33,024 bases of DNA. Source: a virus. The notes under the pieces are model-generated. The model saw nothing but the letters and a program-made list of their open reading frames with translations, was not told where the DNA came from and made no database searches. A program made the translations under genes and the position numbers. How positions within the stretch are numbered: position 1 is the stretch's first letter; every line of letters begins with the position of its first letter. The stretch spans positions 1-33,024 of the IMG/VR virus record IMGVR_UViG_3300043448_000859; one strand, given 5' to 3'. Of this stretch, positions 6,343 through 30,644 are shown piece after piece.

Positions 6343-6368
6343 CTTGATAATCCTAGGATTATCTTATT

Positions 6369-6442
6369 GCCTCAGTAACTCAGTGGACTAGAGTATCCGC
6401 CTTCTAAGCGGTTAGCCGTTGGTTCGAATCCAACCTGAGGCG
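6369..6442 (+). tRNA. tRNA-Arg (anticodon TCT)
   Basis: Acceptor GCCTCAG/CTGAGGC, anticodon loop CTTCTAA (anticodon 6403-6405), T arm GTTGG-TTCGAAT-CCAAC. A T-T mismatch tops the anticodon stem. It reads AGA/AGG, codons common in AT-rich phage genes. No encoded CCA. Confidence 0.9.
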
Positions 6443-6443
6443 C

Positions 6444-6474
6444 TTGACTTTTTGAGAAAAAAGTCTTATAAATA
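6444..6474 (+). promoter_or_regulatory. Palindromic promoter fused to a late box
   Basis: TTGACT (6444-6449) is followed by an inverted repeat GACTTTTT (6446-6453) and AAAAAGTC (6458-6465), then TTATAA (6466-6471, spacing 16) which overlaps a perfect late box TATAAATA (6467-6474). The repeat starts inside the -35 and ends where the -10 begins. It drives the 33-codon ORF at 6496 and may also end tRNA-Arg transcription. Confidence 0.65.
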
Positions 6475-6495: not shown

Positions 6496-6597
6496 ATGTC
6501 TTACCCAATGCCCACAAAACAGTTTAGTATTCTCGATTGCCGCTATTGGCATATTGAGGGTGCTCCCCTGTTTGCGGATATGGATAGACATATGTAA
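6496..6597 (+). CDS. Putative 33-aa peptide behind a late promoter
   Basis: A 33-codon ORF starting 22 bases after a perfect late box and ending 29 bases before a strong terminator (6626-6660), so promoter, ORF and terminator form a self-contained unit. The peptide (begins MSYPMPTKQFSILDCRYWHI) has aromatic, Cys and His residues but no recognised motif. There is no strong Shine-Dalgarno. It could be a small protein or the unit could be a small RNA of about 180 nt. Moderate to low confidence as a gene. Confidence 0.4.
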   Translation: MSYPMPTKQFSILDCRYWHIEGAPLFADMDRHM

Positions 6598-6625: not shown

Positions 6626-6660
6626 AGGGGAGAGAAACCAAAAGTTTCCTCCCCTTTTTT
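6626..6660 (+). terminator. Rho-independent terminator
   Basis: AGGGGAG then GAAAC pair with GTTTC then CTCCCCT around a CAAAA loop, followed by six T. It is one of the clearest terminators in the window. The next 130 bases up to tRNA-Lys contain no ORF; they hold a small GAGGG-ATCGC-CCCTC hairpin (about 6747-6761) and no other feature I can name. Confidence 0.85.
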
Positions 6661-8317: not shown

Positions 8318-8391
8318 GTCCTTTTAGCTCAGTGGAACAGAGCAGTAGGCTACGAACCTATGTGTCGGGAGTTCGAATCTCTCAAAGGACG
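8318..8391 (+). tRNA. tRNA-Arg (anticodon ACG)
   Basis: Acceptor GTCCTTT/AAAGGAC, anticodon stem GTAGG/CCTAT with loop CTACGAA (8352-8354), T arm GGGAG-TTCGAAT-CTCTC. A34 must become inosine by host TadA to read CGT/CGC/CGA. Confidence 0.9.
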
Positions 8392-8392
8392 C

Positions 8393-8421
8393 TTGACAAA
8401 CTTTTAAAAGTTTGTTACTAT
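8393..8421 (+). promoter_or_regulatory. Promoter with a perfect 20-bp palindrome
   Basis: TTGACA (8393-8398), 17 bases, TACTAT (8416-8421). A perfect 20-bp palindrome, half-site ACAAACTTTT, spans 8396-8415: it begins inside the -35 and ends on the base before the -10. It starts two bases after tRNA-Arg(ACG) and drives the initiator-like tRNA and the 67-aa gene. It may be an operator or a weak terminator fused to the promoter. Confidence 0.75.
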
Positions 8422-8485: not shown

Positions 8486-8560
8486 CGTGGGGAAGTGTAA
8501 CGGTTGCACAGAAGTCTCATAAGCTTCAGGTAGGTGGTTCGATTCCGCCCCCCGCCACCA
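8486..8560 (+). tRNA. tRNA-Met (CAT), initiator-like, encoded CCA
   Basis: Acceptor CGTGGGG/CCCCGCC with a C1-C72 mismatch, D stem GTGT/GCAC, anticodon stem GAAGT/GCTTC with loop CTCATAA (8518-8520), T arm GGTGG-TTCGATT-CCGCC, discriminator A followed by a genomic CCA (8558-8560). An unpaired 1-72 end and a CGNGGGG acceptor are marks of bacterial initiator tRNA, but the three G-C pairs of the initiator anticodon stem are missing. It appears to be the only tRNA here with encoded CCA. Confidence 0.82.
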
Positions 8561-9115: not shown

Positions 9116-9187
9116 GCCCTTGTAGCTCAGTGGTAGAGCAACGGTTTTGTAAACCGTTGGTCGCTGGTTCAAATCCAGTCGGGGGCT
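9116..9187 (+). tRNA. tRNA-Thr (anticodon TGT)
   Basis: Acceptor GCCCTTG/CGGGGGC (two G-T pairs), anticodon stem ACGGT/ACCGT with loop TTTGTAA (9148-9150), T arm CTGG-TTCAAAT-CCAG. The 2OG oxygenase gene starts 30 bases downstream and lacks its own obvious promoter, so it may depend on tRNA-cluster transcripts. Confidence 0.9.
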
Positions 9188-9216
9188 TAAAATTAAATCA
9201 AAAAATAATTTTTGAT

Positions 9217-10290
9217 ATGAAAATTACTAAAATTGAAGGATTTGGATCTTTTGGAAATATTGTAGAAGACGTTGATTTAGAAAATATATCCGAAGAGGAT
9301 TGGTATGAGATTAAAATGTGTCATTCTAAAAACCTTTTAACAATAATTAGATTGGAAAAAAAACTTGATTATAAAAAATATTATTCATTAATTCAAAATA
9401 TAGGTATTCATAATGAAATTAGTCCTATTAGTATTCAAAAATTGTTTGGAAAAAAATCTTTAGATGAAATTAATAAGATAAAAAAAATATCAGATAATTT
9501 TAAAGTAGATAAAAATTTTGGCCAGTTATTTAGAGTTACTGCCCTTAAAGATGAAAATGGTTTACCTTTAGGTGCTTTTGATGATGGTGAATTGTTGTGG
9601 CATAGTAACAATGCTGGATTATTAGAATTTGGACCAGGTGTTGCTTTAATGGGATATCAGCAAATGACTAAAAGTGCAACTGGATTTTTGCAAACTGCTG
9701 ATTATTTTGAAACTCTCTCTGAGACCTTTAAAAAAGAACTTATGGATATGGTAGTTGTTCATAATTATAAAAAAGCAACTATTAATCCAGAAGAAATACC
9801 TGATCAAGAACTAGTTTACGAAACTAGTTTTTGTCCAGAAGAAAATTCTAAAATACCTCTAGTGATTAAAAGTCCATCGGGAATAGTTGGATTGCATATT
9901 CCTCTTAATACTATTGACTATATTGAAGGGATGTGTAAAAGAGAAAGTGATAAATTATTAGAATGTATTAAAAAAGATTTATTTAGTGAAAAATACATCT
10001 ATGATTATTGGTGGGAAAACGATCAAAATATTTTATTGTTCGACAATAGTATTACTTTGCACAGAAGACTTGTAAAGGGAAATAGTTGTGGAAATAGAAT
10101 TGCTTATAGAATTCCTTTTAGTTATGAAAGTCTTTATGGGTATTATGAACCATATTTTCAAAAGAAATTTAGTGATTTGAGAAAAGATAAATGCAATTAT
10201 TGTAAATCAATATCTTATTCCGATATTTCTTCATCTGAGATTAAAAAAATACAAATAATGGCGGATGAGCATCATAGATCTTATACATAA
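9217..10290 (+). CDS. TauD/TfdA-like 2OG-Fe(II) oxygenase, altered facial triad
   Basis: A 357-residue protein of the TauD-type dioxygenase fold. The catalytic segment LLWHSNNAG (His129, Asn131) aligns with the WHxD motif of the family, and the distal ITLHRR (His282) with GNRIAYRIPF (Arg294/298) supplies the second His and the 2OG-binding Arg. The normal Asp of the HxD metal ligand is Asn, which would weaken iron binding or change the chemistry. The likely substrate is a small metabolite and is unknown. The gene sits between tRNA-Thr and tRNA-Gly and is markedly AT-rich. An in-frame extension to 8962 crosses tRNA-Thr and is rejected; ATG 9217 is the first start after it. Confidence 0.78.
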   Translation: MKITKIEGFGSFGNIVEDVDLENISEEDWYEIKMCHSKNLLTIIRLEKKLDYKKYYSLIQNIGIHNEISPISIQKLFGKKSLDEINKIKKISDNFKVDKNFGQLFRVTALKDENGLPLGAFDDGELLWHSNNAGLLEFGPGVALMGYQQMTKSATGFLQTADYFETLSETFKKELMDMVVVHNYKKATINPEEIPDQELVYETSFCPEENSKIPLVIKSPSGIVGLHIPLNTIDYIEGMCKRESDKLLECIKKDLFSEKYIYDYWWENDQNILLFDNSITLHRRLVKGNSCGNRIAYRIPFSYESLYGYYEPYFQKKFSDLRKDKCNYCKSISYSDISSSEIKKIQIMADEHHRSYT

Positions 10291-10294: not shown

Positions 10295-10323
10295 TTGACA
10301 TAATACTCATTATGTCTTATACT
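10295..10323 (+). promoter_or_regulatory. Palindromic promoter upstream of tRNA-Gly
   Basis: TTGACA (10295-10300), 17 bases, TATACT (10318-10323). An inverted repeat GACATAAT (10297-10304) with ATTATGTC (10309-10316) starts inside the -35 and ends two bases before the -10. There is no T-tract, so it is not a normal terminator. Confidence 0.75.
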
Positions 10324-10461: not shown

Positions 10462-10490
10462 TTGACATAAAACTCAAAATGCTCTAAGAT
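10462..10490 (+). promoter_or_regulatory. Porin promoter with flanking inverted repeat
   Basis: TTGACA (10462-10467), 17 bases, TAAGAT (10485-10490). ATCTTAG (10455-10461) and CTAAGAT (10484-10490) form 7-bp arms that enclose the promoter and include the -10. Downstream are two CTTAAG sites five bases apart, a late box, and a 9-bp leader hairpin. Confidence 0.65.
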
Positions 10491-15163: not shown

Positions 15164-15237
15164 CGGGGTGTAGCTCAGTTTGGTAGAGCACTCGCTTTGG
15201 GAGCGAGAAGTCGTAGGTTCGAATCCTGTCACCCCGA
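15164..15237 (+). tRNA. tRNA-Pro (anticodon TGG), copy 2
   Basis: Acceptor CGGGGTG/CACCCCG, anticodon stem CTCGC/GCGAG with loop TTTGGGA (15198-15200), T arm GTAGG-TTCGAAT-CCTGT, discriminator A. It has the standard bacterial Pro acceptor, unlike copy 1 at 7152, but the same anticodon and a nearly identical D arm. It lies alone, far from the cluster. Confidence 0.92.
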
Positions 15238-15244
15238 TATTCTT

Positions 15245-15264
15245 GTCCAGTTTCAAAATTGGAC
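15245..15264 (+). terminator. Imperfect hairpin after tRNA-Pro copy 2
   Basis: GTCCA (15245-15249) and TGGAC (15260-15264) pair, with TTT/AAA inside. It is short and has no T-tract, so it may be an RNase-processing or transcription-pause site and not a full terminator. Confidence 0.4.
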
Positions 15265-15267
15265 TAC

Positions 15268-15296
15268 TTGACGATAAAAAAAATATCGTCTATAAT
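15268..15296 (+). promoter_or_regulatory. Palindromic promoter, best example
   Basis: TTGACG (15268-15273), exactly 17 bases, perfect TATAAT (15291-15296). The inverted repeat GACGATA (15270-15276) with TATCGTC (15284-15290) starts inside the -35 and ends on the base before the -10, around a seven-A loop. No T-tract follows. It drives the gene at 15320. Confidence 0.85.
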
Positions 15297-30610: not shown

Positions 30611-30644
30611 TTGACAGGATTTCCTGACAATGTTATGATAAATA
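30611..30644 (+). promoter_or_regulatory. psbA promoter with palindrome and late box
   Basis: TTGACA (30611-30616), 17 bases, TATGAT (30634-30639). TTG-A-CAGGA (30611-30619) and TCCTG-A-CAA (30622-30630) are inverted arms with one mismatch, beginning at the -35. The late box GATAAATA (30637-30644) overlaps the -10, so psbA can be read by host sigma early and by the phage late sigma later. Confidence 0.8.

Follow-up and report, generated by a model that had tools for sequence, protein, structure and literature searches.

Candidate tRNA-trailer hairpins overlapping predicted sigma-70 promoters in a virus related to freshwater Synechococcus myoviruses

Three inverted repeats located within promoter-like sequences, at positions 6444, 8393 and 10295 of the window, are quite likely to be hairpins of tRNA 3' trailers on which a sigma-70 promoter, of predicted activity, is superposed. 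The window is the whole stretch of DNA analysed here, a 33-kb virus record in which ARAGORN finds 23 tRNAs and which encodes an OprB-type porin and, by similarity, psbA. Its closest named relatives are freshwater Synechococcus myoviruses, e.g., S-SRM01 and the DSL-LC phages. With somewhat less assurance, we favor a broader reading: a dual-coded phage element of about 29-33 bp that acts as a host-type promoter in DNA and as a tRNA-trailer hairpin in RNA, in which the -35, the spacer and even the -10 co-evolve by pairing with the promoter kept, and which is widespread in cyanophages and marks gene-insertion junctions.

Hairpin-promoters and tRNA 3' ends

A first-pass annotation of this DNA had described five palindromic promoters, all five of which lie at the coordinates given. 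It placed the -10 at 16-17 bp from a TTGAC-type -35, and the spacer is 17 bp at every site. Arms of 7-10 bp had been claimed; they are perfect over 8, 10, 8 and 7 bp at 6444, 8393, 10295 and 15268, respectively, and reach 5 bp at the psbA site. The tRNA genes abutting two of the five sites had gone unremarked. The sites and their neighbors are as follows.

6369..6442, + strand: tRNA-Arg(tct) (ARAGORN; Rfam tRNA match 6369-6442), whose trailer is the 6444 element
6444..6472, + strand: candidate hairpin-promoter 6444, TTGACT, N17, -10 TATAAA, beginning 1 nt past the tRNA discriminator base; arms GACTTTTT (6446-6453) and AAAAAGTC (6458-6465)
8318..8391, + strand: tRNA-Arg(acg) (ARAGORN, Rfam), whose trailer is the 8393 element
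8393..8421, + strand: candidate hairpin-promoter 8393, TTGACA, N17, -10 TACTAT, beginning 1 nt past the tRNA discriminator base; the repeat is a perfect 20-bp palindrome (8396-8415)
9116..9187, + strand: tRNA-Thr(tgt) (ARAGORN, Rfam, relatives), ancestral upstream neighbor of the 10295 element
9217..10290, + strand: TauD-like dioxygenase gene (Pfam PF02668, E 6.8e-08), between tRNA-Thr and the 10295 promoter
10295..10323, + strand: candidate hairpin-promoter 10295, TTGACA, N17, -10 TATACT; arms GACATAAT (10297-10304) and ATTATGTC (10309-10316)
15268..15296, + strand: predicted promoter, TTGACG, N17, TATAAT, with a 7-bp stem; arms GACGATA (15270-15276) and TATCGTC (15284-15290)
30611..30639, + strand: predicted psbA promoter with a 5-bp repeat, only CAGGA (30615-30619) and TCCTG (30622-30626)

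The repeat begins 2-3 nt past the tRNA 3' end at 6444 and 8393, and does so for 10295 in relatives; the 10295 element adjoins tRNA-Thr in relatives and in S-SRM01, and in the window the TauD-like gene intervenes. The only families matched by Rfam at the hairpins were tRNAs. The same search gave an extra tRNA at 8486-8557 (46.6 bits, anticodon apparently CAT) that ARAGORN does not report. As the arms differ in sequence, the sites have a structure in common and are not a repeated site. The conserved architecture with differing arms proposed earlier is thus retained for the structure and the unlike arms, but not as a general promoter feature, since it is tied to tRNA 3' ends.

A scan against controls had been proposed, and the enrichment it was meant to reveal is real in the window: four hairpins of at least 7 bp lie on promoters, compared with 0.62 per offset in shifted controls, and with strict -10s only, two such stems were found where 0.08 were expected. 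RB49 has 11 hairpins of at least 7 bp on promoters against 1.2 in offset controls. The enrichment does not extend to the cyanomyovirus isolates tested: most others have 0-2 against 1-2 in offset controls, with none in S-CRM01, S-CREM1, S-PM2, S-SM2 and DSL-LC03, and a general rule for cyanomyovirus promoters was rejected as unsupported in these isolates. Distance from a tRNA is what separates the cases. Across 80 loci around porin relatives in viral contigs, a stem of at least 6 bp was observed in 25 of 29 promoters at most 5 nt from an upstream tRNA. The figure was 2 of 31 for distances of 6-39 nt and 8 of 222 for distinct promoters not near a tRNA.

Viral contigs were further scanned for TTGAC preceded by the T-loop or acceptor end of a tRNA, whether or not a hairpin was present, and the porin and psbA loci were added. 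Among the matches listed, a -35-anchored helix is present in 205 of the 263 distinct TTGAC promoters next to a tRNA, compared with about 8 after shuffling; related sequences inflate these counts, and the anchoring was defined after examples had been seen. The helix lies within the spacer in 134 of the listed promoters (class I), and in the other 71 its 3' arm runs through the -10 (class II), as in GACAATC...GATTGTC, where TATGAT supplies the GAT. The remaining 58 listed sites have no helix of 6 pairs, which counts against the trailer reading; in several of them, the match is not a promoter but the beginning of the next tRNA. Named examples of the element are tRNA-Met, tRNA-Arg(acg) and tRNA-Arg(tct) of S-PM2 and tRNA-Thr of S-SRM01. 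Two hairpin promoters with no adjoining upstream tRNA, at S-SRM01 165173 (MW015081; TTGACCtaatgccgattaggtgaTATAAT, just upstream of a tRNA-like sequence) and Syn9 18629 (NC_008296; TTGACAccctggacagggtgtgcTATAAT), fall outside the tRNA-trailer rule and are not explained by it.

The spacing of the -10 argues that the superposed promoter is a real one, of sigma-70 type with -35 and -10 at 17 bp. When a -10 was not required, a match of at least 5/6 was found at spacer 17 in 135 of 245 tRNA-adjacent TTGAC sites among the matches listed, compared with 11 sites at spacer 16 and 4 at spacer 18. A second peak at spacer 22 (47 of the listed sites) is read as coming mainly from ATAAA after the -10 in one family. 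We infer from these motifs that the hairpin-promoters would be active.

Compensatory changes within the helices

Pairing is maintained through sequence change. In the Arg(acg) family (37 sites among the matches listed that are orthologous or similar to 8393), 96.4% of cells are paired, compared with 32-44% in slid registers, and double changes number 24 against 6.3 after shuffling. The Thr family (10295) gives 97.8% against 33-59%, and 33 double changes against 10.3; its orthologue arms include GACATAAT/ATTATGTC, GACGAAA/TTTCGTC and GACAAAATA/TATTTTGTC. Orthologues of 6444, one of which is in S-PM2, likewise have varied arms. In class II, spacer base 3 covaries with -10 base 4 (C-G, U-A and U.G intermediates); this covariation is weaker, as the other pairs are nearly invariant and the set was picked partly by its 3' motif. 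The compensatory base changes expected of an RNA secondary-structure element are thus seen in the Arg(acg) and Thr families and, more weakly, in class II. Among the matches listed, non-Watson-Crick pairs read on the tRNA strand are G.T in 68 sequences and A.C in 5, many of these sequences reflecting a single position of a single family. The ratio falls to 12 to 5 (P=0.14) once similar contexts are collapsed, so the G.U strand bias is only suggestive. Taken together, the paired compensatory changes and the G.U wobbles on the tRNA strand point to selection on an RNA hairpin in the tRNA trailer. Since the promoter's own RNA starts downstream of the hairpin, the structure would act as RNA only in tRNA read-through transcripts.

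These alignments bear on two other explanations. Chance, i.e., short palindromes arising in AT-rich spacers, is hardly credible as an account of the whole set: the orthologue alignments rule it out at 6444, 8393 and 10295, and compensatory changes and the excess at tRNA ends speak against it, but it probably does hold for the two other sites of the first-pass annotation. At psbA, the spacers of about 30 orthologous promoters are unrelated and form stems of 3-6 pairs at best; the repeat is lost on comparison, the site was rejected as a member and its repeat is probably fortuitous. Orthologues of 15268 lack the 7-bp repeat and have stems of only 2-4; this site was likewise dropped, its stem probably being due to chance or lineage-specific. 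A structure at the DNA level, with the promoter regulated through a cruciform or through a palindrome to which a protein binds, is very improbable. The repeats are indeed perfect palindromes in DNA and overlap promoter elements, but the arms are different at every locus, the wobbles are G.T over A.C on one strand, hairpins follow promoterless tRNAs, and promoters away from tRNAs have no hairpins. The extrusion suggested earlier is disfavored by the same G.U wobbles, whereas its companion suggestion, a hairpin acting in upstream RNA, gains support for tRNA trailers.

Trailers, terminators and known stem-loop promoters

Hairpins also follow tRNAs where no promoter is superposed. Two lie in the window.

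6346..6363, + strand: tRNA-Ile(tat) trailer hairpin, GATAATCC/GGATTATC, promoterless and inside a tRNA array
15245..15264, + strand: tRNA-Pro trailer hairpin, GTCCA...TGGAC, between tRNA-Pro (15164-15237) and the 15268 promoter

The sequence just 3' of the tRNA-Ile is GATAATCCTAGGATTATC. In array-internal gaps of 12-60 nt, a stem of at least 5 bp was found in 86% of trailers among the matches listed, compared with 14% after shuffling, and tRNA-Pro and tRNA-Arg of S-CRM01 have trailer hairpins without a promoter. At tRNA-Pro of the window, where orthologues have TGCCAGTT/AACTGGCA, trailer hairpin and promoter are adjacent and not superposed, which would explain the freedom of the 15268 promoter to be hairpin-less in relatives. 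As judged from sequence, the hairpin belongs to the tRNA, not to the promoter.

According to the proposed mechanism, a transcript reading through the tRNA would leave 1-3 nt past the last tRNA base unpaired; these are typically C-U-U, in which UU corresponds to the TT of TTGAC. The remaining -35 (GAC...) would pair with the end of the spacer in class I and, in the class II elements of relatives, with the -10 and the next four bases. With the hairpin formed, the trailer would be unavailable for pairing with the tRNA, and a short single-stranded stretch would remain at which the tRNA 3' end could be matured. The promoter in the same DNA would start the next transcription unit with a transcript of its own that has no hairpin. 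In a folding test, mean acceptor-stem pairing was 0.911 with the native hairpin trailer, 0.735 with shuffled trailers and 0.917 with no trailer; hairpin-less trailers also beat their shuffles, which counts against the trailer reading, so the test is supportive, not specific. We infer that the hairpin may insulate the tRNA fold or assist 3' processing. RNase Z is reportedly activated by downstream uracils, going by the title of Pellegrini et al. (2012), cited in PMC11649783. An unpaired C-U-U or U between tRNA and hairpin would suit this enzyme.

Hairpins directly downstream of a tRNA are likewise found in bacterial tRNA trailers and intrinsic terminators. Unlike those, the phage trailer hairpins are short and lack a T-tail, and they either overlap a predicted promoter or sit within arrays; the bacterial tRNA/TTGACA sites sampled mostly have no hairpin, or have long T-tailed stems without a -10. 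A host-like origin was rejected, as no hairpin accompanies the four tRNA/TTGACA sites of the cyanobacterial genomes sampled.

The closest known system is that of the PeSLs (promoter-early stem-loops), which Arbiol et al. in 2010 and Comeau et al. in 2014 are said to have described in RB49, phi1 and other T4-like phages. In the RB49 sequence, the stem-loop fills the 17-bp spacer of a TTGAC-type -35/-10 just past the end of the upstream gene, and the predicted overlap of a sigma-70-type early promoter with a stem-loop is found here as well. The RB49 copies, about ten in number, follow coding genes and have almost the same GC-rich stem throughout (AGGGGATC/GATCCCCT and variants). In contrast, the stems of the cyanophage elements are AT-rich, diverge through compensatory changes and are linked to the 3' ends of tRNAs; a repeated cassette sequence is absent, the arms of 6444, 8393 and 10295 being unrelated beyond GAC/GTC, and class II geometry was not seen in RB49.

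A composite terminator-promoter of the PeSL kind, whose hairpin ends the upstream transcript and shields the promoter from read-through, is an unlikely alternative to the trailer reading. Its appeal is that the site lies between two transcription units, that this layout recurs in RB49 immediately behind coding genes and that some T-rich bases follow the hairpins (mean 3.8 T of 8). However, none of 70 hairpins among the matches listed is followed by at least 6 T in 8 nt, so that the U-tract expected behind the GC-rich stem of an intrinsic terminator is missing; the stems are AT-rich, at about -6 to -8 kcal/mol; and a conventional terminator, GC-rich and with a T-tail, is present in the phage at ~6627-6660. 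Hairpins are present between tandem tRNAs as well, and termination there would split the array. The missing U-tract and this placement make termination unlikely and tell against the weak terminator of the first-pass annotation.

Insertions, overlapping motifs and implications

The tRNA-Thr/promoter junction looks like an insertion hot spot. Two unrelated genes, for the TauD-like dioxygenase and an HNH endonuclease, occupy this one junction in different relatives. The TauD-like gene is missing from the junction in relatives. The displaced 10295 hairpin of the window has stayed perfect without an adjoining tRNA, which counts against the trailer reading, and a new hairpin follows tRNA-Thr.

9197..9216, + strand: hairpin after tRNA-Thr, ATCAAAAA/TTTTTGAT, just before the inserted TauD-like gene; a possible alternative pairing is AAAATTA/TAATTTT

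In six contigs where tRNA-Thr and the promoter are separated by an HNH gene, a new 12-bp hairpin follows the tRNA, and an A.C mismatch interrupts the hairpin of the displaced promoter. The stop codon of the HNH gene of L197 (2098-2547) is inside the TTGAC box. These insertions, along with the tRNAs that mark non-syntenic regions of cyanophages (PMC3037559), could suggest a mobile promoter cassette whose repeat is kept as a recombination or insertion site. This is quite improbable: arms not common to the loci offer little homology for recombination, and in the HNH lineage the promoter hairpin decays while the tRNA gains a new one. As regards the modular gene shuffling by homologous recombination attributed to PeSLs, two gene insertions are seen at one junction, and the loci have no homology in common. 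About 170 bp downstream of 10295, a second promoter upstream of the porin (TTGACATAAAACTCAAAATGCTCTAAGAT, 10462-10490) resembles 10295 in sequence and may be a decayed copy of it; its hairpin is almost never present in relatives.

A further overlap concerns late transcription. The T4-type late motif is NATAAATA (PMC2984593).

6467..6474, + strand: T4-type late promoter motif TATAAATA, overlapping the -10 of the 6444 promoter

At psbA, the -10 followed by AAATA forms the late motif GATAAATA (30637-30644). TTGAC and the -10 are conserved in about 30 psbA promoters, most of which also have the AAATA that yields NATAAATA. Overlapping early and late promoters are known in RB49 and S-PM2 (PMC2984593). 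Those are two promoters with no hairpin, and 6444 and psbA likewise carry NATAAATA over the -10, which suggests early/late dual use. Between the 6444 promoter and the strong terminator (~6627-6660) lies a 33-codon ORF (6496-6597). Since promoter, spacing and ATGTCT start recur unchanged in S-PM2, this ORF may be a genuine small gene.

Full-text literature searches returned nothing on tRNA-adjacent hairpin promoters. Promoter/stem-loop overlap is already known from the RB49 PeSLs; what is new is a diverging tRNA-trailer element in cyanophages. Two overlapping codes, a promoter and an RNA structure, would co-evolve in it within a few dozen bases, giving a testable reason for the palindromic look of some phage promoters. 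Such hairpin-promoters may mislead promoter motif searches as well as terminator predictors. Overall, the findings suggest that phage tRNAs may need protected 3' trailers, which bears on how host enzymes mature 20 or more phage tRNAs.
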